This document shows, piece by piece, positions 2,511 through 50,529 of a stretch of 64,000 nucleotides of DNA (positions are counted from its first letter, which is position 1; each line of letters opens with the position of its first letter). The notes below the pieces were generated by a model. That model saw only the letters and a program-made list of their open reading frames with translations. It was not told the DNA's origin and ran no database searches. A program made the translations under genes and the position numbers. The stretch is from assembly GCF_000802385.1 (NCBI RefSeq), contig NZ_JTDN01000001.1, forward strand, positions 1,371,501-1,435,500, read 5' to 3'. Source of the DNA: Croceibacterium mercuriale. Lineage in GTDB: Bacteria > Pseudomonadota > Alphaproteobacteria > Sphingomonadales > Sphingomonadaceae.

Positions 2511-3500
2511 CTATCCGGCGGCGTAGATGCGGTCGAGCACCTGCGCCACGTCCACCAGCCGTGCCGCCTGCGGATCGAACCGCGTGCTTCCAGCCAGTTG
2601 CCGCGCCCATGCCGAAGCAGCCCGTGTGCCCCAATCGTCCGGCGGGCTGGCAATGGGATGGGCCTGCGTGCCGTGATGCCGGAAGGCGGCAAAGTCGTAG
2701 AAGCTGCCATCCACATTACGGAACGTGACCGCCCCTTGTGTGCCGTAGAACGCCGCCTCGATCACCGCATCACGGCCGGCCGGCAGGTTCCACGAACAGG
2801 CGAGCTGCACCGCAGCGCCGGTGGCAAGGTCCAGCCGTGCGGTTGCGAAATCTTCCACCCGGTCAGGCACCTGCCCCAGCGGCGCACCGCCGGCGAACAG
2901 GCGCGCGGTGACGTGCTCCACCGCAGGGAAATCCAGCAGCCACAGCGCCAGATCGATCAGGTGGACACCCAGGTCGATCACGCAGCCGCCGCCCGATTGC
3001 GCCCGGTCGTAGAACCACGGCTTGTCAGGTCCGTAGGCATTGTGGAACGTCAGATCGACGGCATAGATCGTGCCCAGCTCTCCGCTGCGGATCGCCTGCG
3101 CCATGGCCTCGGTCGCGGCGGTGTGGCGGTAGGACAGGTCGACGCCGAGCAGCCGGTCTGCCGCCTGCGCCGCATCCACCACCGCCGACACCTCGCCGGC
3201 ATCGCGGCCCAGCGGCTTCTGACAGAACACCGCCACGCCGCGCCCGAGCGCCTCCACTGATTGCGCCGCATGAAGAGCGGACGGGCTGGCGATCACCACC
3301 CCGTCCAACCCCAGGTCCAGCATCGCCTGCAGGGATGGCAGCGCGACCGCCCCCGGAGCAATGGCCTGTGCCTGCGCAACGCAGTCCGGCGCAGGATCGC
3401 AGATCGCCACCGCCTCCATCAAGCCGGTGTCGACAATGGCCTGCATGCGGTGTCGGCCGATCCAGCCGGTGCCGAGAAAGCCGATGCGGGGCTTGCTCAC
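2511..3500 (-). CDS. Gfo/Idh/MocA family oxidoreductase
   Basis: The 329-aa protein has an N-terminal Rossmann NAD(P)-binding fold with GFLGTGWIGR at about residues 7-16. The family loop appears as CQKPLGRD, a variant of the usual EKP with Gln in place of Glu. The second domain carries GVHLIDLALWLL, where the catalytic Asp/His pair of sugar and inositol dehydrogenases is normally found. Relatives oxidise or reduce sugars, nucleotide sugars and inositols. Because inositol-phosphate synthase lies in the same operon, an inositol- or glycoside-directed redox step is a reasonable guess, but substrate cannot be read from sequence. Its start overlaps the end of the dehydrogenase gene by 4 bp. Confidence 0.85.
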   Translation of the reverse strand: MSKPRIGFLGTGWIGRHRMQAIVDTGLMEAVAICDPAPDCVAQAQAIAPGAVALPSLQAMLDLGLDGVVIASPSALHAAQSVEALGRGVAVFCQKPLGRDAGEVSAVVDAAQAADRLLGVDLSYRHTAATEAMAQAIRSGELGTIYAVDLTFHNAYGPDKPWFYDRAQSGGGCVIDLGVHLIDLALWLLDFPAVEHVTARLFAGGAPLGQVPDRVEDFATARLDLATGAAVQLACSWNLPAGRDAVIEAAFYGTQGAVTFRNVDGSFYDFAAFRHHGTQAHPIASPPDDWGTRAASAWARQLAGSTRFDPQAARLVDVAQVLDRIYAAG

Positions 3501-4465
3501 AGGGTCACCAGGGCTTTGACGAAACCTTCCGGCTTGTCGCGGGTCGCATCCAGTGCATCCCCCAGCCGCTCCAGCGGGTAGCTGTGCGTGTAGAGCGGCG
3601 CGGGATCGAAGCTGCCATCGGCCACTGCGGCGATCGCCTCGCGCAATCCGCGCATCTGAACGGCCGGGTCGCGTTCATGCGCGTTGGCGACGTCGATCCC
3701 CTTCCAGTTCCACATCTGCATGGAAACCTGCCGTGGTCCATCCTGGTGATAGCCGGCGATCACCAGCCGCCCGCCGAAGCCGGTCAGCTCGCCAGCTAAG
3801 TCGAGCGGCCATTGCTTGCCGACGCACTCGATCACCCGCTCGCACATCGCCTCGCCGGTCAGCTGCTTGACCTGGTCGATGATGGCGTAATGATCGTGCA
3901 TGAAAATCGTCTCGGCCGCGCCGTAGTGCCGCGCCAGATCCAGCGACTCCTGCCGCCGGCTGATGGCGATCACCCGCGCGCCGGCGCGACTGGCCAGATG
4001 ACACAGCACCGCGCCCAGGAAGCCGATGCCGACGATCGCCACCGTCTGTTCCGGCCGGATATCGCTGCGGTGGAAGATGTTGAAGGCGCAGCCGAGCGGC
4101 TCGCCCGGGAAGGGCTGGCCATCCAGTTCCGGCGGCAGCTTCGCTGCCATGTCCGCCCGCACGATGTCGCTTTCGGCGAAAGAGCGATAGGAAAGCGCAG
4201 CCACTCGATCACCGGTGACCAGTCCGCTGACCCCCGGACCGACGGCCTCCACCCTGCCCCAGCCCTCATGGCCCAGATCACCCGGTTCGCGGGGATAGTC
4301 CATACACTCGAGACCGGCCCATGGTTCCAGATTGCTGGCGCACACGCCGCAACCTTCGAGCCGGATGCGCACCTCGCCCTCGCCAGGTTGCGGGATGGGC
4401 ACGTCGTTGCGCAGTTCGATCGTGCCGGGCGACGCCAGCACCGCCGCCTTCATCATTTCTGTCAT
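3497..4465 (-). CDS. Zinc-type medium-chain alcohol/polyol dehydrogenase-like protein
   Basis: This 322-aa MDR-superfamily enzyme has the catalytic zinc region CGVCASN (C42) and GHEGWG (H66-E67). The NAD(P) loop is VGIGFLGAV near residue 145. The lobe that carries the four-cysteine structural zinc in classical alcohol dehydrogenases is missing, which explains the short length. MDR enzymes of this shape oxidise alcohols, polyols or sugars, or reduce enones. It sits between inositol-phosphate synthase (9 bp upstream) and the Gfo/Idh oxidoreductase (4-bp overlap). Two redox enzymes acting in turn on a hydroxyl, as in epimerisation through a keto intermediate, would suit this pairing. That is inference. 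Confidence 0.82.
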   Translation of the reverse strand: MTEMMKAAVLASPGTIELRNDVPIPQPGEGEVRIRLEGCGVCASNLEPWAGLECMDYPREPGDLGHEGWGRVEAVGPGVSGLVTGDRVAALSYRSFAESDIVRADMAAKLPPELDGQPFPGEPLGCAFNIFHRSDIRPEQTVAIVGIGFLGAVLCHLASRAGARVIAISRRQESLDLARHYGAAETIFMHDHYAIIDQVKQLTGEAMCERVIECVGKQWPLDLAGELTGFGGRLVIAGYHQDGPRQVSMQMWNWKGIDVANAHERDPAVQMRGLREAIAAVADGSFDPAPLYTHSYPLERLGDALDATRDKPEGFVKALVTL

Positions 4466-4474
4466 GGTCAGCAG

Positions 4475-5581
4475 TCAGACCGCAGCGATGAATGTTTCGA
4501 GTTCGGCATAGGCGCGGTCATCCGGCATCTGCTCGGGCGGATGCTTGCAGAAATAGGCCGCAGCCGGCAGCACCGGCCCGGCCAGACCGCGATCCTTCGC
4601 CAGCTTGGCACACCGGATCATGTCGATCGCCACGCCGGCCGAGTTCGGGCTGTCCTCCACCGAAAGGCGCAGTTCCAGGTTCATCGGCACACCGCCGAAC
4701 AACTGCCCTTCCATGCGCAGGAAACACACCTTGTTGTCGTTCTGCCAGGCAACATAGTCGGACGGGCCGACATGGATGTTGTCGTCCTCCATCCGCACCG
4801 CAGCGACCGACTGTACGGCCTCCGTCTTGCTCTCCTTCTTGGAAGCGAGGCGGCTGCGCTCCAGCATGTTGAGGAAGTCGGTATTGCCGCCGGTATTGAG
4901 CTGGTAGGTGCGGTCGAGCTTCACGCCACGCTTGGCAAACAGGTCGGTCAGCACGCGATGCACGATGGTCGCGCCCAGCTGCGCCTTGATGTCGTCACCG
5001 ATGATCGGCACGCCCGCTGCCCGGAACCGTTCCGCCCAGGTAGCGTCGCTGGCGATGAACACGGGAATGTTGTTCACGAAGGCCACGCCCGCTTCCAGCG
5101 CGCATTCGGCATAGAACTCGGTGGCGTGCTGCGATCCCACCGGCAGGTAGTTCATCAGCACATCCGCCTCGCTCTCGCGCAGCGCATCGATCACTGCCTG
5201 CCGATCCGGTTGCGGCGCGTCTGCGACGGCAAAGGTCCGGTCCTCCGGATAATTGGCCATGTGGTCGGCCACGCCGTCCAGCACCGTGCCCATCTGCACG
5301 ATCGTGCCGGTACGCTCCACCTGCGGACAGAAGACGGCCGTGCAGTTCGGCTTGGCAAAGATCGCCTCCGCCACGTCCTGCCCCACTTTGCGCCGGTCCA
5401 CGTCCCATGCCGCGACGATCCGCACGTCTTCCGGGCGGTAGCCGCCCAGATTATGGTGCATTAGGCCAGTCAGGTCGTTGGCTCCGTTGCGGTAATGGGC
5501 GAGCCCCTGCACCAGCGAGCTGGCGCAATTGCCCACGCCCACCAGCGCAACGCGGATACCGCGGGGATCAGGCGAAAGCAT
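4475..5581 (-). CDS. ino1: Inositol-3-phosphate synthase (myo-inositol-1-phosphate synthase)
   Basis: The enzyme turns glucose 6-phosphate into 1L-myo-inositol 1-phosphate with internal NAD recycling. At about 368 aa it matches the short archaeal/actinobacterial form. Visible hallmarks are the N-terminal NAD loop VGVGNCASSL, the MNYLPVGSQ segment, the central NTGGNTDFLNM block and the SKKESKTEAV active-site lysines, followed by GPSDYV. An ATG 23 codons earlier exists, but it would overlap the preceding gene. The chosen ATG has AAGGAT about 10 nt upstream and matches the family N-terminus. This activity is uncommon in Proteobacteria. Its place in a sugar-transfer operon suggests inositol is a building block of the product. 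Confidence 0.9.
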   Translation of the reverse strand: MLSPDPRGIRVALVGVGNCASSLVQGLAHYRNGANDLTGLMHHNLGGYRPEDVRIVAAWDVDRRKVGQDVAEAIFAKPNCTAVFCPQVERTGTIVQMGTVLDGVADHMANYPEDRTFAVADAPQPDRQAVIDALRESEADVLMNYLPVGSQHATEFYAECALEAGVAFVNNIPVFIASDATWAERFRAAGVPIIGDDIKAQLGATIVHRVLTDLFAKRGVKLDRTYQLNTGGNTDFLNMLERSRLASKKESKTEAVQSVAAVRMEDDNIHVGPSDYVAWQNDNKVCFLRMEGQLFGGVPMNLELRLSVEDSPNSAGVAIDMIRCAKLAKDRGLAGPVLPAAAYFCKHPPEQMPDDRAYAELETFIAAV

Positions 5582-5603
5582 CAGCGGCAATCCTTCTTGT
5601 TCG

Positions 5604-6530
5604 TCATGCGGGCACCCCGATACGCGGCGGGGTAGCAGTCGCGGGAGCATAGCGTTCGACCATCTGCTGACACCAGTCGGCGAAGGCCTGCGGTTCGCGC
5701 GCCGGGCTGGTATGATGTGCCTCCACGCCGAGATGCTCGGGCGTGAAGCAGAAGGTCACCAGCGTGTCGAATGGGGCCAGCGCCTCCATCTGCCGGTCGA
5801 ACCAGTCGAGCGCGTCAGGGCGGAAGCTGTCGGCCCACGACAGGCCGGTGCGCAGCTTGCGCACGCCCAGTTCGCTCATCCAGCGAACCGCATCGTCCAG
5901 CCGCGGATCGTGGAAGTGGAACCACTGCATCAGTCCCATCCGGTCCGCAAACGGCCGATAGGCTTCCAGGCCCGGCTTGGGCGTTCCGTCTTCCCGGATC
6001 AGGCCCATGTAGAAGTGGCGGTAATAGCTGGACCCTTCCGCCTCCCGGTGACGCGTTTCCGCGCCCCAGCTCTGCGGCAGGTCGAACAGCGAATACCAGT
6101 ATACGTTGGGCACCCGCCCGATCAGCAGCTCGGCAGTCTTCTCCACTCCGAACTGCTGCACCTCCTCCGCGCCGAACGAGCCGACGCCTACTTCCGTGGC
6201 CCAGATCTCCTTGTCCGGCACCACCGCCTCGATCTCGGCGATCTTGTCGGGCCAGGCGTGGATCGGCCACAGGTTCCAGTCGAGCGGGAAGCCATGCACG
6301 GCAACCACGTCCACCTCGTCCAGCGCGCCATGCGCGCGCATCCGGTTGGTCCAGTGGGGATCGATCGGCGACATGCCACCCAGCACGCGCTTCACCGACG
6401 GGTTCACGGAGCGGATCGCGCGGCCGGCGCGGATCACCGTATCGGCGTATATCGACCAGTCGGGGTCAAGCTCCGGATTCCAGTGCGACTTGTTGTTCGG
6501 CTCGTTCCAGAGCATCACCGCTTCGATCAC
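5604..6530 (-). CDS. Glycoside-hydrolase-like TIM-barrel protein (clan A type, apparently circularly permuted)
   Basis: The 308-aa protein starts at a GTG whose last base joins the upstream TGA (4-bp overlap). The acid/base motif WNEPN sits at residues 8-12 (E10) instead of the middle of the chain. The predicted nucleophile is E113 in WATEVG, followed by strand-8-like YWYSLFD. Residues 172-195, ending GLIREDGTPKPG, look like the usual end of a GH39/GH5-type barrel. Yet about 110 residues follow that look like strands 1-3 and helices 1-3 (LGVRKLRTGLSWAD, then VTFCFTPEHLG, then FADWCQQMVERY). No signal peptide is seen, so it is probably cytoplasmic. It may hydrolyse or transfer glycosyl groups, perhaps xylosyl; the substrate is unknown. 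Confidence 0.78.
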   Translation of the reverse strand: MIEAVMLWNEPNNKSHWNPELDPDWSIYADTVIRAGRAIRSVNPSVKRVLGGMSPIDPHWTNRMRAHGALDEVDVVAVHGFPLDWNLWPIHAWPDKIAEIEAVVPDKEIWATEVGVGSFGAEEVQQFGVEKTAELLIGRVPNVYWYSLFDLPQSWGAETRHREAEGSSYYRHFYMGLIREDGTPKPGLEAYRPFADRMGLMQWFHFHDPRLDDAVRWMSELGVRKLRTGLSWADSFRPDALDWFDRQMEALAPFDTLVTFCFTPEHLGVEAHHTSPAREPQAFADWCQQMVERYAPATATPPRIGVPA

Positions 6531-7336
6531 GTATTCGGACCCCTGTCAGGATAGACCGCCGCCGGCCCCAGATGGCTGTAAGGCACATCGGCCACGCGGC
6601 AGAGATAGACTTCGGCTTCGGGCTGAACCTCGATCGTGAAGCCGGCCGCGCGCAGCATGGCCTTGCTGCACGCCATGTTCGGCGCCCACCAGTTGGTCCA
6701 GTCGTCGGCGAAGCGGCGTTCGATGAAGTGCATCTTGGGATAGCCGGGATCGTCGAAGAAGGCCGGCGGATCCCAGGTACCCGGCACATGGAAGGGATGA
6801 TCCTCCGGGAGCTCGATCTCGGCCTCGCCGCCCTGCTGCATGGTCTGGAACAGCATGGTGCCGCCGGCCACATGCTCGCGGATCAGGTCCAGCGCCAGCA
6901 GCGGATGGCGCAGGTGGTACAGCACACCCATGAAGATGACCCAGTCGAACTTCTCGCCCAGCGCCGCCACGTCGTAGACCGACAGGTTGCGGAACTCGAT
7001 GTCCCGGTAACCCTGCATCTGCGCCGCGAACCGCGCCTGCGCCAGGTAGCGGTCGTCGCTGTCGATCCCGACCACGCGCCCGGCACCACGCCGCTTGAAC
7101 TCGAGCGAGTAGAAGCCCGCATTGCACCCGATGTCGAGCACCGATTGCCCGCTCAGATCATCAGGCAGCACATGGGCAAAATTGCGGAACTTGCTGGCCG
7201 GGTAGTCGGGCAGAAAATGATCAGGCGCGGTCTGGATGCCGTGCGGCAGATGGAGGTTCTGGAACCAGGGCGCCAGCCTGTCGACCTGCGCGCGCATCGC
7301 TTCGGGCGCGAGCATCTGTTCGGCGTCGCGGCTCAT
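6527..7336 (-). CDS. SAM-dependent methyltransferase, glycan-locus type
   Basis: The 269-aa class I methyltransferase has motif I VLDIGCNAGFYSLE at residues 66-79, an acidic GIDSDDRY for the ribose, and a later FMGVLYHLRHP block. The N-terminal region WFQNLHLPHGIQTAPDHF recalls CmoB-like enzymes. It resembles the TIGR04290 group of methyltransferases, which I recall from glycosyltransferase-containing loci; the exact assignment needs a profile search. A much longer upstream extension is open but has no family resemblance, so the ATG before SRDAEQ is used. It is the first gene of the minus arm and overlaps the glycosidase-like gene by 4 bp. It probably methylates a sugar or cyclitol hydroxyl of the locus product. 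Confidence 0.84.
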   Translation of the reverse strand: MSRDAEQMLAPEAMRAQVDRLAPWFQNLHLPHGIQTAPDHFLPDYPASKFRNFAHVLPDDLSGQSVLDIGCNAGFYSLEFKRRGAGRVVGIDSDDRYLAQARFAAQMQGYRDIEFRNLSVYDVAALGEKFDWVIFMGVLYHLRHPLLALDLIREHVAGGTMLFQTMQQGGEAEIELPEDHPFHVPGTWDPPAFFDDPGYPKMHFIERRFADDWTNWWAPNMACSKAMLRAAGFTIEVQPEAEVYLCRVADVPYSHLGPAAVYPDRGPNT

Positions 7337-7423
7337 GCCGGCGCCTCGGCGTAATCGTCGGCCTTGCGAAAAATCATTCGTCCCCCGTGCCCTCACTTGC
7401 CGGAATGCACCGGCCCCCATCCT

Positions 7424-7441
7424 GCATGTACGATAACATGC
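7424..7441. promoter_or_regulatory. Inverted repeat in divergent control region (candidate operator 1)
   Basis: GCATGT (7424-7429) and ACATGC (7436-7441) form a perfect 6-bp inverted repeat with a 6-bp AT-rich centre. It lies between the divergent methyltransferase and glycosyltransferase genes. The symmetry suits a dimeric regulator, but no regulator gene is nearby. Confidence 0.4.
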
Positions 7442-7463
7442 TTTGTTGCTGCTTGTTCCCGCA

Positions 7464-7485
7464 CGGTTCCACCGCAGCGGAACCG
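7464..7485. promoter_or_regulatory. Inverted repeat in divergent control region (candidate operator 2)
   Basis: CGGTTCC (7464-7470) and GGAACCG (7479-7485) form a perfect 7-bp inverted repeat with an 8-bp centre, 22 bp past the first palindrome and just ahead of the plus arm. It could be an operator or an RNA hairpin in the leader of the plus-arm transcript. Confidence 0.38.
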
Positions 7486-7512
7486 CAGCTACTTTCATCA
7501 ATTGGTCTACGC

Positions 7513-8436
7513 ATGGCAGCAGAGTTGATGCAACGCTGGACGCAGGCCATGCGTGACCGGCGGTTCGATGTGGCGTGGAACCTGTCTGCCGATGCACTCG
7601 CCCTGCGCGATCCGGCAAGTCGTGACGATCCATCGCTGCCGTACCATCAGCGATGGGTGTGGGACGGCCGACCCGTCGACGGGCGTGATGTGCTGGTGCG
7701 GTGTTATCACGGGCTGGGGGACACGATCCAGTTCGCCCGCTTCCTCCCGCTGCTGGCGTCACGCGCGCGGAATGTGACGGTGGAGATGCAGCCCGATCTG
7801 CTGCCACTGTTCAGCCACTGGATGGACCGGATCGGCTTTCACCCGTTTGATCTCGCGCACCCTCTGCCGCCGGCCGAGTGCAACCTGGAGATAATGGATC
7901 TGGCCTTTGCCCTGCGGGCCGCGCCGGACGTTCATGCGGCGCCGTACCTGCCACAGCGCTGGCAGGGCAGCGGCACCGGCACGATCGGACTGTGCCACGC
8001 GGCCGGCGGGTGGGATGCGGATCGCAACCTGCCGGCGATGCTGCTGCAGCCCTTGTGCGAGAGGCATGATTGCACGTTGCTGATGCCGCAACCAACTGGC
8101 CCGACAGCTGCGCTGCCGGTGCGCAATCCCGCCGGTTGTCCGGGCGCGATCGCCGATACTGCTGCGCTGATCGCCACGATGGACCTTGTTGTAACGGTCG
8201 ACACGATGATCGCGCATCTTGCCGGAGCAATGGGGGTACCGGTCTGGGTGATGCTGAAGCACGAACCGGACTGGCGCTGGAATCCGGCGCAAAGCGTGTC
8301 ATGCTGGTATCCCGGTACGCGCCAGTTCGTCCAGACCGAGGTTGGCGACTGGGCCGGCGTTGTCCGGCGGATCGAAGGTGCGCTGGCAGATCGCCCGCAC
8401 CATGCACCGCCTTCCGTGGCACTTGCGGGAACTTAG
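7513..8436 (+). CDS. Heptosyltransferase-like (GT9-fold) glycosyltransferase domain protein
   Basis: The 307-aa protein contains RCYHGLGDTIQFARFLPL (about residues 63-80) and, near the C-terminus, VVTVDTMIAHLAGAMGVPVWVML. Both segments are typical of the GT-B domain that follows TPR repeats in many alphaproteobacterial proteins annotated as TPR/heptosyltransferase-like. Here the TPR part is missing; only a short helical N-terminus precedes the catalytic domain. It heads the plus arm. The start is uncertain: the ATG chosen begins the conserved region, while upstream ATGs (for example 7438) would add a Cys/Pro-rich stretch that also contains the palindromes. It probably transfers a sugar in the locus pathway. 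Confidence 0.72.
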   Translation: MAAELMQRWTQAMRDRRFDVAWNLSADALALRDPASRDDPSLPYHQRWVWDGRPVDGRDVLVRCYHGLGDTIQFARFLPLLASRARNVTVEMQPDLLPLFSHWMDRIGFHPFDLAHPLPPAECNLEIMDLAFALRAAPDVHAAPYLPQRWQGSGTGTIGLCHAAGGWDADRNLPAMLLQPLCERHDCTLLMPQPTGPTAALPVRNPAGCPGAIADTAALIATMDLVVTVDTMIAHLAGAMGVPVWVMLKHEPDWRWNPAQSVSCWYPGTRQFVQTEVGDWAGVVRRIEGALADRPHHAPPSVALAGT

Positions 8437-8550
8437 ATGATGAAGAAGGATTATTGATCCCGGCCGGGGATGTGCGAGATTGGCGCAATCGGCGCGTGAT
8501 CGCAAGACGCCGCTTGTCGGCTCGCCTGGATGGTGAACGGGGGGATTGTA

Positions 8551-9669
8551 GTGAGTGAACGGGTTCTGGTCACGGGCGGTGCTGGCTTCATCGGCCGGTT
8601 CGTGTGTGACGAATTGCTGCGGCGCGGACACAAGGTCCGGGTGCTCGACAGCCTGATCGAACAGGTACACGGCGCTGATGCACGCCGGCCCGACGCTCTC
8701 TCCCGCGATGCCGAATTCGTCCACGCGGATGTACGTGATGCCGGCAAGGTGGCCGAGGCTCTGCGCGGGGTCGACAGCGTGGTCCACCTGGCGGCCGAGG
8801 TCGGCGTCGGCCAGTCGATGTACGAGGTGGAACGCTATACCTCGACCAACGATGTGGGCACTGCCGTCCTGTTCGAGAAGCTGATCGACCAGCCGGTGCG
8901 ACGCGTCGTCACAGCCTCCTCCATGAGTATTTATGGCGAGGGTCTGTACCGCGACGCAGATGGCGGTCTGGTAGAGGATGCCGCACGCAAGCCCCTGCGC
9001 GACGGTCAGGCAAACTGGGAGCCGCTCGACAATCATGGGCGCCCGCTGGCCCCGGTCGCCACGCCCGAGTGGAAGCGGCCCAGCCTGTCGTCGATCTACG
9101 CGCTGAACAAGTATGTGCAGGAACGCACCACCCACATCATGGGCGATCCCTACGGCATCGAGAGCGTGTGCCTGCGGCTGTTCAACGTCTATGGTCCGGG
9201 TCAGGCACTGTCCAATCCCTATACCGGCGTGCTGGCGATCTTTGCCTCCCGCCTGCTGAACGGCCAGCCGCCGATGATCTTCGAGGATGGCGAGCAGCGC
9301 CGCGACTTCGTGCATGTGCATGACGTGGCCCGCGCCTTCTGCGATGCGCTGGTCCTGCCGGAGGCAGTGGGCGGCACCTTCAACATCGGCTCGGGGCGGG
9401 ATCGCTCCGTACGGGAAGTGGCGCATGATCTTGCCCGCGCGATGAACCGCAATTCCATCGAGGCGGAGATCGTGGGCAAGTCGCGCACGGGCGACATCCG
9501 TCACTGTTTCTGCGACACCAGCCTCTCGGAACAGAAGCTGGGCTTCGCCGCGCGCGAGGACTTCGTGGAACGGCTCGCCGAACTGGCCGAGTGGGTCGGG
9601 CAGCAGACCGCGGTCGACCACGTTGCCAAGGCGCGGAGCGAACTGGAAGCTCGCGGGCTGGTCGCATGA
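8551..9669 (+). CDS. NAD-dependent sugar epimerase/dehydratase (extended SDR)
   Basis: The 372-aa protein has the NAD loop TGGAGFIG near the start, SSMSIYGEG holding the catalytic Ser region, and SIYALNKY with the catalytic Tyr-x3-Lys. The substrate-binding RLFNVYGPGQ follows. The MSIYGEG pattern and overall layout are closest, by memory, to dTDP-rhamnose 4-epimerase and UDP-glucose 4-epimerase-like proteins. A GTG start with a G-rich ribosome site is chosen over an ATG 21 bp upstream that lacks one. Its stop overlaps the next epimerase gene by 4 bp. It presumably inverts a sugar carbon on a nucleotide-sugar donor used by the glycosyltransferases downstream. Confidence 0.85.
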   Translation: MSERVLVTGGAGFIGRFVCDELLRRGHKVRVLDSLIEQVHGADARRPDALSRDAEFVHADVRDAGKVAEALRGVDSVVHLAAEVGVGQSMYEVERYTSTNDVGTAVLFEKLIDQPVRRVVTASSMSIYGEGLYRDADGGLVEDAARKPLRDGQANWEPLDNHGRPLAPVATPEWKRPSLSSIYALNKYVQERTTHIMGDPYGIESVCLRLFNVYGPGQALSNPYTGVLAIFASRLLNGQPPMIFEDGEQRRDFVHVHDVARAFCDALVLPEAVGGTFNIGSGRDRSVREVAHDLARAMNRNSIEAEIVGKSRTGDIRHCFCDTSLSEQKLGFAAREDFVERLAELAEWVGQQTAVDHVAKARSELEARGLVA

Positions 9670-10736
9670 GCGGCGGCGAGCAGACGATCCTCGTCACCGG
9701 AGGCGCTGGCTTTGTCGGCTCCAATCTGGCGGACCGGCTGGCCACCGGCGGCCGGCGCGTGCGGATCTACGATTCGCTGAACCGTCCGGGCGTGGAGGCC
9801 AATCTCGACTGGCTGACCAGCCGTCACGGCGAGCTGATCGAGCCGGTGATCGCCGACATCCGCGATGCGGACCGCATGCTGCAGGCCGCTCGCGGCGTCG
9901 ATGCGGCATTTCACTTCGCGGCGCAGGTGGCGGTCACGACCAGCATGGCCGATCCGCGGGCTGACCTGGACATCAACATCCTCGGCACCTTCAACCTGCT
10001 GGAAGCGGTGCGCGCACAGGCGGCCCATGCGCCGGTCATCTTCGCATCCACCAACAAGGTCTATGGCGACCTGTCGGATTGCCCGATGCGGCCGAGCCCG
10101 CATGGCTACCACCCGGATCACCCTGATCTGCCGGTGACCGGCATCGGTGAGGACCGCCCGCTCGACTTCCACACGCCGTACGGCGTGTCGAAGGGGGCGG
10201 CGGACCAGTATGTGCTGGATTACGCCCGGTCGTATGGCCTGCGGACGGCCGTGCTGCGGATGAGCTGCATCTACGGTCAGCGACAGATGGGGACAGAGGA
10301 CCAGGGCTGGGTCGCGCATTTCCTGATCCGCGCCATGCGGGGCGAGACGATCACCCTGTTCGGTGACGGTTATCAGGTGCGCGACATCTGCGACGTGCGC
10401 GACACGGTCGACGCCTATCTGGCAGCGCTGGACCGGATCGACGCGATCAGTGGCCGGGCCTTCAACTGGGGCGGCGGGGCGAACAACGCCGTCAGCCTGC
10501 TGACCGTAATCGACGAGATCGGCCGGGTCATCGGCCATGCGCCCAAGGTGGAGTTTGCCGACTGGCGCCCGGGCGACCAGCGCTGGTACGTGTCCGACAC
10601 CGCCCGCATCGACAAGGCCCTGCAACTGTCGCAGCGGCGCGGCTGGCGCGACGGACTGCGCGATCTTGCCGCCTGGCTGGAAACGCAACACGCGCCAGCG
10701 CAGCCCGTTCCGGCTATGCAGGCTGCCGCGCTTTGA
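9666..10736 (+). CDS. NAD-dependent epimerase, CDP-paratose 2-epimerase-like
   Basis: This 356-aa extended SDR begins TILVTGGAGFVGSN and carries FASTNKVYGDL, in which the NKVYGD sequence is characteristic of CDP-paratose/CDP-tyvelose 2-epimerase relatives rather than ordinary GalE. The catalytic TPYGVSKGAADQY (Tyr-x3-Lys) and RMSCIYGQRQMGTEDQGW follow, the latter also typical of that group. It is chained by 4-bp overlaps to the genes on both sides, the downstream one starting at TTG. True CDP-paratose is unlikely without the other 3,6-dideoxyhexose genes. Other members of the group act on UDP- or GDP-sugars, so the donor is left open. Confidence 0.85.
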   Translation: MSGGEQTILVTGGAGFVGSNLADRLATGGRRVRIYDSLNRPGVEANLDWLTSRHGELIEPVIADIRDADRMLQAARGVDAAFHFAAQVAVTTSMADPRADLDINILGTFNLLEAVRAQAAHAPVIFASTNKVYGDLSDCPMRPSPHGYHPDHPDLPVTGIGEDRPLDFHTPYGVSKGAADQYVLDYARSYGLRTAVLRMSCIYGQRQMGTEDQGWVAHFLIRAMRGETITLFGDGYQVRDICDVRDTVDAYLAALDRIDAISGRAFNWGGGANNAVSLLTVIDEIGRVIGHAPKVEFADWRPGDQRWYVSDTARIDKALQLSQRRGWRDGLRDLAAWLETQHAPAQPVPAMQAAAL

Positions 10737-11824
10737 CGGTTCGCAAGATCCTGATGACTGTCGATACGGTCGGCGGCGTCTGGCAATATGCCACCGACCT
10801 GGCTGCCGCCCTGACTGCACTAGGGCAAGAGGTCACGCTGGCTATCCTTGGCCCGCCTGCAAGCCCGGATCAGGTGCGGACCGCAGAAGCTGCCGGCTGT
10901 GAAGTGCAGGAAACCGGCCTTCCGCTGGACTGGCTGGCCGACGGCCCGGCGCCGGTGCAGGATGCCGCCCGCCAGCTGGTGCAACTGGCGCGATCCGCCG
11001 ACGCCGACCTGATCCATTGCAATCACCCCGCTTACGCCGCCGCGGCAGGGTGGCCAGCGCCGGTGATCGCCGTCGCGCATGGCTGCGTCTCCACCTGGTG
11101 GCGGGCTGCGCGTGGCACACCGGTCACGGAAGCGTTCCGCTGGCATGCGGACCTGACCCGGCAGGGCCTGCTTGCAGCCGAGATCGTCGTGGCGCCAAGC
11201 GCCAGTTACGCCCGCGATGTCCAAGTGACCTATGCCCTGCCCCGCTTGCCCGTTGCAGTACACAATGGGCGGGCCTCGCGCCCGCGCGCCCTGCCGGCCC
11301 GCGACGACCTGTTTGCGCTGACCGTCGGCCGCTTGTGGGACGAGGTGAAGCAGGCCTCTCTCCTCGACCGGGTTGCTGCGCAGATCGACCTGCCGTTCCT
11401 CGCCGCCGGATCGCTGACGGCACCCCACGGGGAGCAGGCCCTGCTGCAGCATCTGCAGACGCTCGGCGCCATCCCTGCCGCGCAACTCGATGCCCTGCTG
11501 GCTGCCCGGCCGATCTTCGTGTCGGCAGCAAGTTTCGAACCGTTCGGCCTTGCCGTGCTGGAGGCTGCGGCTGCCGGCTGCGCACTGGTGCTGGCGGACA
11601 TGCCCTCGTTCCGCGAGCTGTGGGATGGTGCGGCCATGTTCGTACCGGTCGCATCGGAGGACGCCTATGCAGAAGCGATCGCGACGCTCGCCGGCGACCC
11701 TGCCAAGCGAGAGCAAATGGGTCGCAGGGCGCAGGAACATGCGCTGCGCTACACGCCCGAGCATACGGCAGCGGCGATGACCGCGTTGTACGATCAGGTG
11801 CAGCCGCATCGGGTGGCAGCATGA
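10733..11824 (+). CDS. Glycosyltransferase family 4
   Basis: The 363-aa GT-B retaining glycosyltransferase has an N-terminal acceptor domain (TVDTVGGVWQYATDLAAAL) and a C-terminal donor domain with FEPFGLAVLEAAAAG, the E-x7-E motif of GT4. The start is a TTG overlapping the previous stop; an ATG at 10754 is a possible alternative and would remove seven residues. GT4 members include the mycothiol enzyme MshA, which glycosylates inositol phosphate. With inositol-phosphate synthase in the same locus, an inositol acceptor is conceivable but unproven. It is followed with a 4-bp overlap by the first CgeB-like gene. Confidence 0.86.
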   Translation: MTVRKILMTVDTVGGVWQYATDLAAALTALGQEVTLAILGPPASPDQVRTAEAAGCEVQETGLPLDWLADGPAPVQDAARQLVQLARSADADLIHCNHPAYAAAAGWPAPVIAVAHGCVSTWWRAARGTPVTEAFRWHADLTRQGLLAAEIVVAPSASYARDVQVTYALPRLPVAVHNGRASRPRALPARDDLFALTVGRLWDEVKQASLLDRVAAQIDLPFLAAGSLTAPHGEQALLQHLQTLGAIPAAQLDALLAARPIFVSAASFEPFGLAVLEAAAAGCALVLADMPSFRELWDGAAMFVPVASEDAYAEAIATLAGDPAKREQMGRRAQEHALRYTPEHTAAAMTALYDQVQPHRVAA

Positions 11825-12948
11825 GGATCGTATACTTCACGCACTCGCTCGCCTCCTGCTGGAATCATGGCAACGCCCATTTCCTGCGGGGTGTGCTGGA
11901 TGAGCTGGTCGAACGCGGCCACGACGTTGCCGCGTACGAGCCGGAGAACGCCTGGAGCCTGGCCAACCTGCTGGCGGATCATGGCGAACCAGGGCTGGAG
12001 CCGTGGCGCCGCCTCTATCCGCGGCTTGCCTCCACCACCTACGCGCCGGGTACCGACATGGACGAGCTGGTAGATGACGCGGATCTGGTGATCGTACATG
12101 AATGGAACGATCACGATCTGGTCGCGCGGCTGGGCGCCCTGCGCAAGGCCGGTGCGCCGTTCCGCCTGCTGTTCCATGACACGCATCATCGCGCTGTCAG
12201 CGCGCCGGCGGAGATGCAGGCCTATGACCTGTCCGGTTACGACGGGGTTCTGGCGTTCGGCGAGACGCTGAGCGAGGTGTATCGCGGCTGGGGCTGGCAG
12301 GGCCGGGTCTGGACCTGGCACGAAGCGGCCGACACGCGCCGCTTCCATCCGCCAGCTGCGGAAGGCGAGCGCACCGGCCTGGTATGGGTCGGCAACTGGG
12401 GCGATGGCGAGCGCACGCTGGAACTGGAACATTTCCTGTTCGCGCCGGCGCAGGCTGCCGGCCTGCCGCTCGACATCTATGGCGTCCGCTATCCTGAGGA
12501 GGCTCGCGCCACACTTGCCCGCTATGGCATCGCCTATCATGGCTGGGCCGCGAACGCCCGTGCCCCGGAGATCTTTGCCCGCCATCTGGCGACCGTGCAT
12601 GTGCCGCGGCGCTTCTACACCACGGTGCTGCCCGGCATCCCCACGATCCGCGTGTTCGAGGCGCTCGCATGCGGCATTCCGCTGGTGAGTGCGCCATGGA
12701 GCGATGCGGAAGGGCTGTTCCGGCCCGGCATCGACTACCTGACCGCGCAGGACGGGGCGGAGATGACCCGTCACCTGACCGCCCTTGCCGCCGATCCGGA
12801 CCTGCGCGCCGAACTGGTGGCGCACGGTCTCGAAACCGTCCGCGCGCGCCATACCTGCGCGCACCGTGTGGACGAGCTGCTGGCGATCGCCGCCACGCTC
12901 GGCCTTCCTACCAGTGCTGCGGCAGAGCCCGAAAGGACCCCCGCATGA
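11821..12948 (+). CDS. CgeB-like glycosyltransferase 1
   Basis: The 375-aa protein opens RIVYFTHSLASCWNHGNAHF and has a C-terminal GT-B donor domain with GIPTIRVFEALACGIPLVSAPW, the signature of the CgeB/Glyco_trans_1_2 group named after a Bacillus spore-coat maturation protein. A central VIVHEWNDHDLVARLG segment and HDTHHRAVS follow the family layout. It is the first of three consecutive paralogues, each overlapping the next by 4 bp (ATGA), so all three are made from one transcript and probably act in one pathway. Donor and acceptor sugars are unknown. Confidence 0.84.
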   Translation: MRIVYFTHSLASCWNHGNAHFLRGVLDELVERGHDVAAYEPENAWSLANLLADHGEPGLEPWRRLYPRLASTTYAPGTDMDELVDDADLVIVHEWNDHDLVARLGALRKAGAPFRLLFHDTHHRAVSAPAEMQAYDLSGYDGVLAFGETLSEVYRGWGWQGRVWTWHEAADTRRFHPPAAEGERTGLVWVGNWGDGERTLELEHFLFAPAQAAGLPLDIYGVRYPEEARATLARYGIAYHGWAANARAPEIFARHLATVHVPRRFYTTVLPGIPTIRVFEALACGIPLVSAPWSDAEGLFRPGIDYLTAQDGAEMTRHLTALAADPDLRAELVAHGLETVRARHTCAHRVDELLAIAATLGLPTSAAAEPERTPA

Positions 12949-14030
12949 AGATCGCCTTCTATGGCTCCAGCCTGCTCTCCTCCTACTGGAACGGCGCCGC
13001 GACCTATTATCGCGGGATTCTGCACGCCATGGCCAAGCGCGGGCACGAGATCACCTTTTACGAGCCTGACGCCTTCGACCGCCAGCAGCATCGCGACATC
13101 GACCCGCCGGAATGGTGCCGCTCGGTCGTCTATGCCGCCACCGAGGATGCGCTGGTTGGCGTGCTGGCGGAGGCCGGGGCGGCGGACATCGTGGTCAAGG
13201 CCAATGGCGTGGGCGTGTTCGACCGGGAGCTGCTGGAGGGCATCCTGCACCATGCCGCGCCTGATGCGCTGAAGATCTACTGGGATGTCGATGCCGCCGC
13301 CACGCTGGACGAGATGCGCGGTGCGCCCGACCACCCGGTGCGGGCGGCCCTGCCCCACCTGGACCTGGTGTTCACCTACGGCGGCGGGCCGCCGGTCATT
13401 GCCGCATATGAAGGCTTCGGCGCGAAGCAGTGCGTGCCGATCTACAACGCGCTGGACCCGGCGACGCACTATCCCGTTCCGCCTGACCCGCGCTTCGGCT
13501 GCGACTTGGGCTTCCTGGCCAATCGCCTGCCCGATCGCGAGGCACGGGTGGAGGAGTTCTTCCTGAAGGCCGCCGCCCTGCTGCCCGACCGGCAGTTCAT
13601 GATCGGCGGCAATGGCTGGCACGACAAGGGGATGCCGGCCAATGTCCGCGCGATCGGCCATGTCGGCACAGGGTCGCACAACGCCTTCAACTGCACGCCG
13701 CGTACCGTGCTGAATGTGGCGCGGGACAGCATGGCCGATATCGGCTTCTCCCCCGCGACCCGCGTGTTCGAGGCGGCGGGTGCCGCAGCCTGCCTGATCA
13801 CCGATGCCTGGGAAGGAATCGAGCAGTTCCTGCAGCCGGACAGCGAGGTGCTGGTCGCCCGTGACGGACAGGACGTGGCCGACCACCTTGCCGCGCTGAC
13901 GCAGGATCGCGCCCATGCGATCGGGCAGGCGGCACTGACCCGCGTGCTGAGCGAGCACACCTATGACCGACGCGCCGTGGAAGTGGACCGGGTGCTGGAC
14001 GGCCTGCGCCAGCGGGAGCCGGTCGCATGA
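12945..14030 (+). CDS. CgeB-like glycosyltransferase 2
   Basis: The 361-aa protein starts KIAFYGSSLLSSYWNGAATYYRG and shows a family-typical middle (IYWDVDAAATLDEM, VFTYGGGPPVI) that resembles the two neighbours. The donor domain has FSPATRVFEAAGAAACLITD near residue 265. The similarity of all three start regions (short strand, SS.W.G, then a helix ending in RGH) supports origin by tandem duplication. No signal peptide or membrane segment is present, so it is cytosolic or peripheral. It overlaps both neighbours by 4 bp. Confidence 0.84.
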   Translation: MKIAFYGSSLLSSYWNGAATYYRGILHAMAKRGHEITFYEPDAFDRQQHRDIDPPEWCRSVVYAATEDALVGVLAEAGAADIVVKANGVGVFDRELLEGILHHAAPDALKIYWDVDAAATLDEMRGAPDHPVRAALPHLDLVFTYGGGPPVIAAYEGFGAKQCVPIYNALDPATHYPVPPDPRFGCDLGFLANRLPDREARVEEFFLKAAALLPDRQFMIGGNGWHDKGMPANVRAIGHVGTGSHNAFNCTPRTVLNVARDSMADIGFSPATRVFEAAGAAACLITDAWEGIEQFLQPDSEVLVARDGQDVADHLAALTQDRAHAIGQAALTRVLSEHTYDRRAVEVDRVLDGLRQREPVA

Positions 14031-15106
14031 AGCTGGTCGTGCTCGGCCTCAGCCTGTCCTCCTCGTGGGGCAACGGCCATGCCACCACCTTCCGCGCGCT
14101 GCTCGCCGCCTTTGCCGCGCGCGGGCACGAGGTGCTGTTCCTGGAACGCGACGTGCCCTGGTATGCCGGGAACCGCGATCTGCCGGATCCGTATTTCTGC
14201 CGTCTGGCCTATTACACCAGCATGGCCGATCTGGAGCACTGGGCTGACGAGGTGGCGGGCGCGGATGCGGTGATGGTCGGCTCCTATGTGCCCGATGGCG
14301 TGGAGGTCGGCCGCTGGGCGCAGGCCACCGCGCGCGGGGTCACCTGCTTCTATGACATCGACACCCCGGTCACGCTGGCGAAGCTGGCACGCGGCGATCA
14401 CGAATATCTCTCGCCTGAGGTGATCCCCGGCTACGACATCTATTTCAGCTTCACCGGCGGCCCGACGCTGCAACGGCTGGAACAGGAGTTCGGATCGCCT
14501 CAGGCGCGAGCGCTTTACTGCTCGGTCGATACGGCGCGCTACCAGCCGCTGGATGTGCCCAAGCAGTGGGACCTGTCCTATCTCGGCACCTACAGCCCGG
14601 ACCGGCAACCTACACTGGAGCGGCTGCTGCTGGAGCCTGCGCGCAAGTGCCCGGACAAGCGATTTGTCGTGGCCGGACCGCAATATCCGTTCGACATCGA
14701 CTGGCCGGCCAATGTTGAACGGATCGAGCATCTGCCCCCGGCAGAGCACCCGGTCTTCTACGCCGCGTCGCGCTTCACTCTGAACGTCACCCGTGCGGAC
14801 ATGATCGCTGCCGGATGGAGTCCGTCCGTCCGCCTGTTCGAGGCTGGCGCCTGCGGAACGCCGATCATCTCCGACCGGTGGCCGGGGATCGAGGACGTGT
14901 TTACGCCAGGCGAGGCAATCGTGCTGGCCGACACCGCCGGTGAGGTGATCGCCGCACTGGACGGAGAGGCCTCCGACATGGGCGAAGCGGCGCGGCAGGC
15001 GGTGCTTGCCGGGCACAGCGCGGAGATCCGCGCGCAACAGCTGGAACAAGACCTGCACGCACGGCAACACGACCGCGCGGCATCCACAAGAAAGGTAATG
15101 GCATGA
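14027..15106 (+). CDS. CgeB-like glycosyltransferase 3
   Basis: The 359-aa protein begins KLVVLGLSLSSSWGNGHATTF and contains CFYDIDTPVTLAKL and SFTGGPTLQRLEQEFG, the CgeB-type acceptor half. It ends with GWSPSVRLFEAGACGTPIISDRWPGIE, the donor-binding half. This is the most canonical CgeB sequence of the three. The C-terminal tail is Gln/Arg/His-rich. It overlaps the UDP-xylose synthase gene by 4 bp, which makes a pentose donor attractive but not certain. Confidence 0.85.
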   Translation: MKLVVLGLSLSSSWGNGHATTFRALLAAFAARGHEVLFLERDVPWYAGNRDLPDPYFCRLAYYTSMADLEHWADEVAGADAVMVGSYVPDGVEVGRWAQATARGVTCFYDIDTPVTLAKLARGDHEYLSPEVIPGYDIYFSFTGGPTLQRLEQEFGSPQARALYCSVDTARYQPLDVPKQWDLSYLGTYSPDRQPTLERLLLEPARKCPDKRFVVAGPQYPFDIDWPANVERIEHLPPAEHPVFYAASRFTLNVTRADMIAAGWSPSVRLFEAGACGTPIISDRWPGIEDVFTPGEAIVLADTAGEVIAALDGEASDMGEAARQAVLAGHSAEIRAQQLEQDLHARQHDRAASTRKVMA

Positions 15107-16110
15107 GGAACCCGGGCGAGGCACAGGCTGGCGGCACGGTGCTGGTGGCGGGGGGCGCAGGCTTCATCGGCTCGCACCTGTGCGCGGCACTGCTGGATGC
15201 AGGGGCGCATGTCACCTGCCTGGACAACATGCAGACGGCCCTGCCGTCCAATCTGGAGCGGCTGCAATTGCGCGATCGCTTCAGCTACGTAAAAGCCGAC
15301 ATCACGCAGCCATTGCCGGCCGCGATCACCGACACCCGCTTCACCCACATCTACAACCTGGCCTGTGCCGCATCCCCGCCGCTGTACCAGGCGGACCCGG
15401 AGCACACGATGCTGACCAACGTGGTCGGCACGAACCAGCTGCTGCGCCTGGCGGAGCAGACCGGCGCCCGTTTCCTGCTGACCTCCACCAGCGAGGTCTA
15501 TGGCGATCCGGAAGTGCACCCCCAGCCGGAGGATTATCGCGGCAACGTGAACTGCACCGGCCCCCGCGCCTGTTACGACGAGGGCAAGCGCGCCGCCGAG
15601 ACGCTGGCGTTCGACTATGCCCGGATGGGCCGGGCCGATGTGCGGGTCGCACGCATCTTCAACACCTACGGCCCGCAGATGCGGATGGATGACGGGCGGG
15701 TCGTCTCCAACCTGATCTGCCAGTCGCTGGAAGGCGAAAAGCTGACCATCTATGGCAGCGGCAACCAGACGCGCAGCTTCTGCTACGTTGCGGACACGGT
15801 CGATGCGCTGGTGCGGCTGATGGAGAGCGAGATGGCGCAGCCCGTGCCGGTGAACATCGGCACGCAGGCAGAGATCACCGTGCTGGAACTGGTCGCCGCA
15901 ATGGAAGCGGTGGTCGGCCGCAGCCTGGACATCACCTATCACGATCTGCCGCAGGACGATCCGCAGCGTCGCCGGCCGGACATCTCGCGCGCCCGCGAAC
16001 TGCTGGGGTGGGAGCCGACGACGCAGCTCGCCACAGGCCTGCGCCGCACGTATGAATGGTTTGCGCAAGAGATCGCCGCAACCCGGCCGCTGGAGCAGCA
16101 GGTCGCCTGA
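15103..16110 (+). CDS. uxs: UDP-glucuronate decarboxylase (UDP-xylose synthase)
   Basis: The 335-aa extended SDR converts UDP-glucuronate to UDP-xylose using bound NAD. It shows the NAD loop AGGAGFIGSHL, the ACAASPPLYQ segment specific to UXS-type enzymes, LTSTSEVYGDP with the catalytic Ser/Glu region, and YDEGKRAAE with the Tyr-x3-Lys pair. The substrate clamp RIFNTYGPQM and the late RRRPDISRA are also typical. The first nine residues are not conserved, but the ATG overlaps the preceding stop and is therefore preferred. It is the last gene of the plus arm and stops 3 bp from the convergent FrhB-like gene. It should supply UDP-xylose to one of the glycosyltransferases. Confidence 0.9.
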   Translation: MRNPGEAQAGGTVLVAGGAGFIGSHLCAALLDAGAHVTCLDNMQTALPSNLERLQLRDRFSYVKADITQPLPAAITDTRFTHIYNLACAASPPLYQADPEHTMLTNVVGTNQLLRLAEQTGARFLLTSTSEVYGDPEVHPQPEDYRGNVNCTGPRACYDEGKRAAETLAFDYARMGRADVRVARIFNTYGPQMRMDDGRVVSNLICQSLEGEKLTIYGSGNQTRSFCYVADTVDALVRLMESEMAQPVPVNIGTQAEITVLELVAAMEAVVGRSLDITYHDLPQDDPQRRRPDISRARELLGWEPTTQLATGLRRTYEWFAQEIAATRPLEQQVA

Positions 16111-16113
16111 GAT

Positions 16114-17502
16114 CTAGCGACTGGTGCCGTCGATGCGATCGAGCAGACGGCCCAGTCGCCCGCGACCATAGGTAAGCGCGCCATACAGCGCGACCATCCA
16201 GCGGGTCGGCGTCTGGTAGATGGCACGGTCGCCATTCCTGAGCGACATGGCAAACAGCCGATGGCTTGCCCAGCTGATGGTACGGCGCATGGCATAGACC
16301 GCGCGCCGGCGCCGCGGCACGCCGGCTGTTGCCGGTGCAACCCGTTTGACCGGCATCAGTCCTTCAGCACGGGACCTGTGCGCCAGCCGCCAGGCCAGCC
16401 CTTCGCGCCGGTGGCGGAAGCCCGCTGCCTGCGTGTCGGCCACAAAGTTTGTATCCACCTCCTCCAGCGCCAGCCGCCCATCGCCGATCGCCTCGTTCAC
16501 GATGGCGAGCAGTTGGGGGGAGCGGGTCACCACCACGTTGGTGCCGCGTCCGTCACTGGAATACGGCTCCACCCAAGCATCGCCGAAGGAGATGTCGGCG
16601 GTTTCCGCCACCACATCGTCGCAGAAATTGCAGGCGCTGTTCTGGAAGAAGCCGGAGCCCCAATCCCCCTCCACCAGGTGCCACCAGTCCTGTTCGACCG
16701 CATTGCCATCGCTCAGGGAGAGCTGCGTCCGGTACCAGTTGGCCGGTCGGTCGGCGTTCTTCACGCGGTAATTGACCGCCTTCACCGCCGCCGGCTCGGC
16801 CCCCATCTGTTGCGCGAAGCTGTCCACCAGCCGCGCGCTCTTCATGTGGCCGCAGAACAGCCCGAGCATGTGGGTCACCCGCGCCTCCAGCACTGGATCG
16901 TCGGCGCGCGCGAGGTGCACCGCCTTGATGAAGCACGGTATGCCGATCACGGCGTAGCGGCCGGGCACGCGACGGATCTCGTCCAGCACCTGCGCCATGT
17001 CCACGGGGTAGTACCGGCTCTTGGCCCCCTGCCCCAGCTCCTCCGCGGTACGCGAGATGCGGTAGCGGAACAGCCGGTCCTCGACGACACGATCCGATGG
17101 GGCAACGTGCGCTACGCCATCGACCAGCCCTCGCCTGAGCAGCTCCGCCGCGACCCAGCTGACCATCCCGCCGGAGGAGCCGTTATCGCGGAAGCCCGGT
17201 TCGGCCACATGCCCGACATGGCATTGCTCCACCCGCCCCAGGCGCGGATCAAGCACCGGTGCGGCCGGGAAGCGATCGGCAGCGATCACGTCCTCGTTCG
17301 CGGCGGTGGGAGAAAAGGGGCAGATCGCCGCCTGCCGTGCCGTCGGCTGGTGCAGCCAAGCCGGGGGTCCGTCGGGCTTCAGCTGCCCGAACTCGTCCCA
17401 TCCCATCGTGGCCGGTGCATCGCTGGCGCAGCCGCCGCAACCGATGCACAGGCCCGATGCGATAACGTCGCCCGGGCTGATGGCAGCCGGGAGATCAGCC
17501 AA
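16114..17502 (-). CDS. FrhB-like (F420 hydrogenase beta-type) iron-sulfur protein of glycan loci
   Basis: The roughly 462-aa protein has an N-terminal cluster motif CIGCGGC (C19, C22, C25) followed by an ICPF segment, then the FrhB/FdhB fold with GSSGGMVSWVAAELL, IGIPCFIKAVH, GLFCGHMKSA and CNFCDDVVAETADISFGDAW. Proteins of this fold transfer electrons to F420 in archaea, but many bacterial relatives lie beside polysaccharide pyruvyltransferases, as here, and act in glycan modification in an unknown way. The start is taken as TTG overlapping the end of the pyruvyltransferase gene; CTG six bases upstream is possible. No ATG gives the cluster motif without a long unrelated extension. The function is unproven. 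Confidence 0.78.
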   Translation of the reverse strand: MADLPAAISPGDVIASGLCIGCGGCASDAPATMGWDEFGQLKPDGPPAWLHQPTARQAAICPFSPTAANEDVIAADRFPAAPVLDPRLGRVEQCHVGHVAEPGFRDNGSSGGMVSWVAAELLRRGLVDGVAHVAPSDRVVEDRLFRYRISRTAEELGQGAKSRYYPVDMAQVLDEIRRVPGRYAVIGIPCFIKAVHLARADDPVLEARVTHMLGLFCGHMKSARLVDSFAQQMGAEPAAVKAVNYRVKNADRPANWYRTQLSLSDGNAVEQDWWHLVEGDWGSGFFQNSACNFCDDVVAETADISFGDAWVEPYSSDGRGTNVVVTRSPQLLAIVNEAIGDGRLALEEVDTNFVADTQAAGFRHRREGLAWRLAHRSRAEGLMPVKRVAPATAGVPRRRRAVYAMRRTISWASHRLFAMSLRNGDRAIYQTPTRWMVALYGALTYGRGRLGRLLDRIDGTSR

Positions 17503-50333: not shown

Positions 50334-50529
50334 GTCTGCTGAATCGATCACGACCCGCAATCTAGTGAGCGCGACCCGGCCTGTCGAATGAAGGGCGAAG
50401 TTGACACATCTGACAGTGTCCAGGGATCCCCGGCGGACCTGCGCGCCGATGGGGACCAGGATGGCTCTGCGGACGCAGCCAGCCATCGCAGGCGGCGCCT
50501 GTGTAGGACAGCGATGTTTTGCATGAAAT

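Follow-up and report, generated by a model that had tools for sequence, protein, structure and literature searches.

A two-arm locus of Croceibacterium mercuriale encoding a predicted circularly permuted GH39/PslG-like glycosidase and a putative stress-regulated glycoside pathway

The stretch of DNA analysed here, called the window, consists of 64,000 nucleotides of Croceibacterium mercuriale (contig NZ_JTDN01000001.1, positions 1,371,501 to 1,435,500; host genome sequence of 3.48 Mb in 10 contigs). It carries a divergent two-arm locus that potentially encodes a glycoside pathway, including a glycosidase that is predicted to be a circularly permuted GH39/PslG-like barrel, an inositol-3-phosphate synthase (MIPS) and a set of glycosyltransferases. 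Gene families were assigned by Pfam and NCBIfam profile scans, and several start codons were chosen by homology. The locus was compared with the loci of the best 80 of 582 confirmed glycosidase relatives from named genomes, a sample that is biased to near relatives; homologues of the window genes were sought at up to 10 kb from the glycosidase gene, and several loci were cut by contig ends. The number of these 80 loci with a homologue is given below for each gene.

The minus-strand arm encodes a Gfo/Idh/MocA oxidoreductase (2511-3500; PF01408, 60 bits, and PF22725, 94.7 bits; 56/80 loci), a zinc-type MDR dehydrogenase (3497-4465; PF00107/PF08240; 54/80), the MIPS (4475-5581; PF01658, 122.7 bits for a cut-off of 27; 45/80), the glycosidase (5604-6530, with a GTG start) and an S-adenosylmethionine (SAM) methyltransferase (6527-7336; 77/80). 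The MIPS scored 458.6 bits against the mycothiol-type TIGR03450, under the equivalog cut-off of 638, and is not assigned to that equivalog. The methyltransferase scored 358.5 bits against TIGR04290, over the cut-off of 300. This family is listed in NCBIfam as a hypothetical equivalog with no function given, and no paper on it was found in the open-licence PubMed Central (PMC) literature. The nearest named relative of the glycosidase comes from Croceibacterium ferulae (Erythrobacteraceae, Sphingomonadales), with 94% identity. On the minus strand, a sigma-EcfG-like promoter sequence, GGAACAAGCAGCAACAAAGCATGTT (7435-7459), precedes the methyltransferase start by about 100 bp.

The plus-strand arm starts with a GT9-like protein (7513-8436; PF01075, 23.6 bits for a cut-off of 22; homologues in 30/80 loci), whose gene lies between those of the methyltransferase and SDR1, a place occupied in most relatives by a histidine phosphatase. 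It continues with SDR1, a NAD-dependent sugar epimerase/dehydratase (8530-9669; PF01370, 166.7 bits; 62/80), the sugar epimerase SDR2 (9666-10736; 62/80), a GT4-family glycosyltransferase (10733-11824; PF13439 and PF00534; 60/80) and three CgeB-like glycosyltransferases (11821-12948, 12945-14030 and 14027-15106; 58/80, 57/80 and 58/80, respectively). The label "CgeB" is tentative for these three proteins; the second and third match PF13524 (124.7 and 125.2 bits), and in NCBIfam the first has only weak glycosyltransferase matches. The last gene of the arm encodes a UDP-glucuronate decarboxylase, or UDP-xylose synthase (UXS; 15103-16110; 42/80), whose phmmer match to UXS1 structures (E 8e-97) gives good support to the UDP-xylose supply that had been proposed in a first-pass annotation of this DNA. 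That annotation had also described the divergent arms with the genes named so far and a TIGR04290-like methyltransferase, all of which are borne out by the open frames and profile matches, as is the chaining of most genes by 4-bp overlaps (8 of the 11 within-arm junctions, the others being gaps of 9, 22 and 93 bp). The extent of 2511-16110 that it assigned holds for the genes listed and stops short of two more. Directly after UXS and convergent with the plus arm are the genes of a FrhB/FdhB-like (F420 hydrogenase beta-like) protein (16114-17502, minus strand; PF04432, 109 bits, and PF04422, 68 bits; 21/80) and a polysaccharide pyruvyl transferase (17495-18625, minus strand; PF04230, 78 bits; 20/80). 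In Paracoccus yeei and Sinorhizobium meliloti both genes form part of this locus, which in the window should reach about position 18,625.

The distant matches of the glycosidase are the N-terminal domains of proteins annotated as epimerases or SDR proteins, such as those of Tistrella mobilis and Paracoccus sp. AK26. In the Tistrella fusion, positions 120-297 align with query residues 5-185 and positions 8-113 with query residues 191-294, so that the halves have changed places. The same swapped pattern was found in single long open frames of 5 genomes in a search of 397 genomes. A canonical-order profile, built from seven fusion-type domains, placed its start after its end in 80 of 80 free proteins, whose N-terminal third follows the C-terminal two-thirds. 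Reordering these 80 proteins by script increased both the mean best-domain score (89 bits before, 126.5 bits after) and the mean span on the profile (177 positions before, 269 after). Among solved structures in the Protein Data Bank, a native-order profile matched PslG with positions 4-155 on chain positions 133-302 (23.4 bits; 30.9 bits in total), and a reordered profile, made from four sequences only, matched it collinearly (4-286 on 25-320; 45.5 bits, E 5.1e-11). Collinear homology to a solved GH39/PslG-like member was thus reached only after reordering.

The AlphaFold model of the window glycosidase (pLDDT 85.4, pTM 0.86) has eight strands (residues 2-7, 47-50, 75-80, 108-114, 143-146, 199-201, 225-231 and 255-261), which were numbered from the match to PslG. 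Glu10, which is part of an NEP motif, and Glu113 do not vary among the 40 permuted sequences compared, nor do their counterparts in 7 of 7 canonical domains. The predicted model and this conservation agree with clan GH-A, in which an eight-stranded barrel carries the glutamates on beta-4 (NEP) and beta-7. Taken together, these comparisons and the model indicate that the free glycosidase is a complete GH39/PslG-like (beta/alpha)8 barrel and a natural circular permutant, running from beta-4 to beta-8 and then from beta-1 to beta-3.

Several points weigh against this assignment. The second native piece aligned with PslG (201-297 on 25-131) scored 6.6 bits and is not significant alone. The canonical fusion profile had no significant solved match in the Protein Data Bank (best E 0.15), so the PslG-like placement rests on the permuted family. 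Of the low-confidence parts of the model (residues 11-15, 158-168 and the tail), the first directly follows Glu10. Against the glycosyl hydrolase catalytic core PF11790, the window protein reached a low 21.6 bits for a cut-off of 21, over profile positions 66-208 only, and no measured activity of this glycosidase was found in the open-licence PMC literature. At E 0.01, PF11790 matched 34 of 40 members. The GH39 profile PF01229 did not match the window protein at that threshold; among native members it matched 2 of 40, the better of them at E 0.0023, and among reordered ones 2 of 4, the better at E 0.0011. Such divergence from characterised families, with low Pfam scores, would also suit a non-catalytic scaffold or sugar-binding protein, a reading that we consider quite unlikely; the invariance of both candidate catalytic glutamates in permuted and canonical domains speaks against it. 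A truncated or mis-started gene was considered as well, and was rejected because the missing N-terminal third is found at the C-terminus, because ATG, GTG or TTG stands where the alignment begins in 75 of 80 relatives, and because the model is eight-stranded. A 4-bp overlap joins the glycosidase start to the stop of the methyltransferase gene in the window and in 62 of 80 relatives. The frames upstream were read in 14 loci: a stop lies directly upstream in L003 and five codons upstream in L007, and no conserved barrel sequence was seen by eye in the remaining ones. On the sequences at hand, the permutation is old and fixed, and it probably had a single origin.

Like the members of PslG/GH39 (clan GH-A), the window glycosidase would form a (beta/alpha)8 barrel in which beta-4 carries NEP and beta-7 carries TE, and its full-length match to PslG is collinear after reordering; in both cases the gene lies inside a glycan biosynthesis locus. 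PslG comes from an exopolysaccharide operon and is periplasmic. Unlike it, the window protein is permuted with its ends at beta-4, has 308 amino acids and no further domain, is tied to MIPS and the methyltransferase, and is probably cytosolic, since a chain that starts at a barrel strand leaves no room for an N-terminal signal peptide. Less confidently, it is probably also translationally coupled to the methyltransferase. The glycosidase-SDR2 fusions of Tistrella mobilis, Paracoccus sp. AK26 and others share the same domain (about 30-33% identity) with both glutamates and a similar neighbourhood; unlike the window protein, they keep the normal barrel order N-terminal to the epimerase, and no MIPS or histidine phosphatase accompanies them in the stretches read. 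We know of no clan GH-A family that is permuted, and no apparent report of one was found in the open-licence PMC literature, where the matches included work on barrel design.

One contiguous stretch with SDR1, SDR2, GT4, the three CgeB-like proteins, the methyltransferase and the glycosidase was found in 53 of the 80 loci. CgeB-like 2 was missing from 23 loci and was present elsewhere in the genome in 10 of 10 tested (all Sphingomonas). A test independent of the glycosidase selection was based on 397 genomes of the phylum. TIGR04290 was over its cut-off in 16 of them, and none of the 16 lacked the glycosidase domain: 13 have the free permuted form, among them G421 with the fusion as well, and 3 have the fusion only. 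One further genome, G445, encodes a glycosidase-SDR2 fusion without a TIGR04290 methyltransferase. The co-occurrence of methyltransferase and glycosidase has a hypergeometric probability of 1.3e-27, with genomes treated as unrelated. In other classes the glycosidase profile had weak matches (G095, G112, G172, G224, G289, G312 and G356; E 1e-10 to 2e-4), which were left out of the family. Judged by this gene content, the locus genes are inherited together in Alphaproteobacteria. The first-pass annotation had taken them for a single pathway and had named co-occurrence as the check; the 80 loci and 397 genomes support that idea, since the genes do occur together in the genomes examined.

The loci fall into two types, one with the free permuted glycosidase (type P) and one with a normal-order glycosidase fused to SDR2 (type F). 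The glycosidase domain has the normal barrel order in 7 of 7 fusions examined. Seven type F stretches were read, five long and two short. All seven contain SDR1, GT4 and one or more CgeB-like proteins; UXS occurs in the five long stretches, both dehydrogenases in five and the methyltransferase in four. Neither MIPS nor a histidine phosphatase was found in any of the seven, and no MIPS was found in two fusion-type plasmid records, where the plasmids only were searched. MIPS is present in 13 of 13 type P genomes versus 0 of 4 fusion-only genomes and 34 of 397 overall; the difference between the two types has a Fisher probability of 4e-4, calculated within the family and with genomes treated as unrelated. 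In G421, loci L156 and L155 lie on separate contigs, one of them being of type F and the other a permuted module. This module consists of the methyltransferase, MIPS, phosphatase, permuted glycosidase, FrhB-like protein and pyruvyl transferase, and has no transferase core of its own in the stretch read. Most simply, the permuted enzyme would belong to an inositol-dependent form of the pathway.

MIPS could instead be a general inositol supply, for instance for inositol phospholipid, that is merely located in the cluster of an inositol-free product. It is missing within 10 kb in 35 of the 80 loci and lies further away in 20 of 20 such genomes tested, the fusion-type loci do without it, and 21 of the 34 MIPS-bearing genomes have no permuted glycosidase. 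Against this stand its presence in every permuted-glycosidase genome, compared with a base rate of 34 in 397, and the many loci in which synthase and phosphatase adjoin the methyltransferase and glycosidase, so that we regard an inositol-free product as unlikely. Two findings nevertheless count against inositol in the product: with no MIPS in type F, inositol need not belong to the core product, and the histidine phosphatase, present in 65 of 80 relatives' loci, was not found in the window's genome by a search without positive control, so that the release of free inositol is conjectural here. The inositol-containing product of the first-pass annotation therefore holds for the window type and not for every type.

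The divergent region was analysed in 63 of 87 loci (the 80 and 7 from plasmids), namely those in which 40-1500 bp separate SDR1 from a plus-strand gene that is transcribed away from it. The sigma-EcfG consensus is GGAAC-N15-18-[CT]GTT, and NepR is the anti-sigma factor of the PhyR-NepR-EcfG general stress system. Sites of this form were found in 39 of the 63 regions versus 0.76 expected from dinucleotide shuffles, and with looser criteria an initial scan had found them in 41 of 63 versus 1.4 expected. Their density was 57 in 13.9 kb of divergent DNA (4.1 per kb) versus 51 in 1,237 kb elsewhere in the same loci (0.041 per kb). These counts are not independent, as the loci are related and two of the 63 are both from S. 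meliloti. Sites occur on both strands in 15 loci and on one strand in 24. In regions of 130-1954 bp that were picked by eye, a site was present in 6 of 7 fusion-type loci and 4 of 7 other loci; those of L152 and L157 are directed away from the closest gene of the locus. NepR was found in the window's genome and in 22 others tested, with G317 under the cut-off.

The window itself resembles the PhyR-NepR-EcfG regulon in having NepR in the genome and such a site in its divergent region, regulation here being predicted from sequence, and this one site represents the EcfG-type promoter expected upstream of a regulon member. It lies on one arm only, which speaks against the stress-regulated reading; in the host genome, moreover, TGTT-type sites number 68 versus 35 for a reversed control pattern, so the single site alone proves little. 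The same direction is taken by the 15 of 54 non-Paracoccus loci with no EcfG-type site, and by the nine Paracoccus loci, all without one, which in this respect are unlike the regulon. A lack of the stress system in Paracoccus was rejected as the cause, as NepR is present in 8 of 8 Paracoccus genomes tested. In most groups, the richness of the divergent promoter region in sigma-EcfG-type sites points to probable control by the general stress response.

The enzyme families allow a pathway to be proposed. MIPS would convert glucose-6-phosphate to inositol phosphate, and in relatives the phosphatase resembles small histidine phosphatases. SDR2, SDR1 and UXS would provide sugar nucleotides including UDP-xylose. 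The closest solved relative of SDR2 is CDP-tyvelose 2-epimerase (E 8.5e-73), so a 2-epimerised nucleoside-diphosphate sugar is likely; SDR1 matches a mixture of epimerases and dehydratases. GT4 and the three CgeB-like transferases, the third of which has no close relative among solved structures, may assemble an oligosaccharide that the TIGR04290 enzyme would methylate and that may receive pyruvate from the pyruvyl transferase in some hosts. The Gfo/Idh and MDR dehydrogenases, whose solved relatives are only distant, may adjust a hydroxyl of a sugar or of inositol. With less confidence, the permuted glycosidase would be a retaining enzyme that trims the oligosaccharide or transfers it onto inositol, and the normal-order domain of type F would do a matching job beside SDR2 with no local inositol supply.

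An exported product must also be considered, in which the locus would make the repeat of an exopolysaccharide or lipid-linked glycan, with flippase, polymerase and export encoded elsewhere and the glycosidase acting as a biosynthesis-linked endoglycosidase like PslG. Four glycosyltransferases suffice for a repeat unit, no solved protein is closer to the glycosidase than PslG, and many hosts have a pyruvyl transferase in the locus, an enzyme equally at home in exported polysaccharide loci. On the other side, a free glycosidase with no room for a signal peptide differs from the periplasmic PslG, and no flippase, polymerase, glycan exporter or initiating sugar transferase is named in any of six annotated homologous loci, whose gene tables are incomplete and for which no Wzx/Wzy profile search was made. 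ABC genes of import type are present in their flanks. We consider an exported glycan possible, if somewhat unlikely. The same six loci are the reason why an ordinary capsule or O-antigen is not preferred and is kept as a rival, and they agree with the first-pass annotation, for which Wzx/Wzy regularly present in the same operon would have spoken against a single pathway.

The best explanation, to which we give roughly even chances, is that Alphaproteobacteria have in this locus a stress-regulated unit of biosynthesis, in which a permuted barrel of GH39/PslG type takes part in making a methylated oligosaccharide or glycoside. Judging from the families present, the product is most likely a stress-induced compound of this kind that contains xylose and a 2-epimerised sugar, to which the permuted type would add inositol. 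It may be soluble, lipid-linked or polymeric, so the small soluble or lipid-linked molecule favoured by the first-pass annotation is one possibility among these. The interpretation of that annotation is partly supported; it had overlooked the pyruvyl transferase, the permutation of the barrel and the promoters of stress type. A bolder proposal, which we think quite unlikely, is that a new glycoside class (methylated, inositol-based, xylose-bearing oligosaccharides) is a conserved output of the alphaproteobacterial general stress response, with the permuted GH-A enzyme as an inositol-specific transglycosidase and its fused unpermuted sister making an inositol-free version. What is new here is the permuted barrel, its link to inositol synthesis, the unpermuted fused sister and the stress-type promoters. 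The open-licence PMC literature yielded no paper on a set of MIPS, CgeB, methyltransferase and glycosyltransferase genes and none joining EcfG to these pathway genes. Nor did it yield a paper bearing on the conjecture that the S. meliloti copy is the ndi locus or has tags in the estimated range SMb20240-SMb20253; the passage available from PMC12239276 is unrelated to this locus.

Related loci contain additional genes. Besides the TIGR04290 family to which the window methyltransferase belongs, Azospirillum and Bradyrhizobium relatives have a TIGR04295 radical SAM protein; in this they differ from the window, where no TIGR04295 gene was found among the locus genes. This B12-binding protein (L034:6706-7998, L037:17529-18815) is encoded in the locus in Azospirillum, Bradyrhizobium and Tistrella, which suggests extra C-methylation there. 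Bradyrhizobium loci also have a nucleotidyltransferase, one more CgeB-like protein and a phosphopentomutase (L037:11434-15147). Rhizobial, Roseomonas and some Sphingomonas-type loci repeatedly encode a protein of about 582-586 amino acids that starts with MLVYGDA and has no Pfam match at E 0.01 (L118:12330-14078, L035:704-2464). Also recurrent is a pair made up of a DUF6165 protein and a relative of the GT9-like window gene at 7513-8436 (L032:2558-3882), the position of which varies among loci; no DUF6165 gene was noticed next to the window GT9-like gene, for which no dedicated search was made. Elsewhere in the window, a bacterial small signal recognition particle RNA lies at 50525-50619 on the minus strand. 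Plasmids or megaplasmids, some of them predicted to be mobilizable or conjugative, carry the locus in Paracoccus, Sphingobium, Roseomonas, Azospirillum, Sinorhizobium and Bradyrhizobium.

A fixed permutation of a GH-A-type barrel, with the unpermuted form surviving in sister loci and both forms even within one genome, is a rare natural experiment on barrel reconnection and function. To our knowledge, the downstream chemistry of the alphaproteobacterial general stress response is poorly known, and this locus offers a concrete and testable candidate for one of its metabolic outputs. Its carriers include rhizobial megaplasmids and plant- and human-associated isolates, and the product would bear on stress survival in several such settings.

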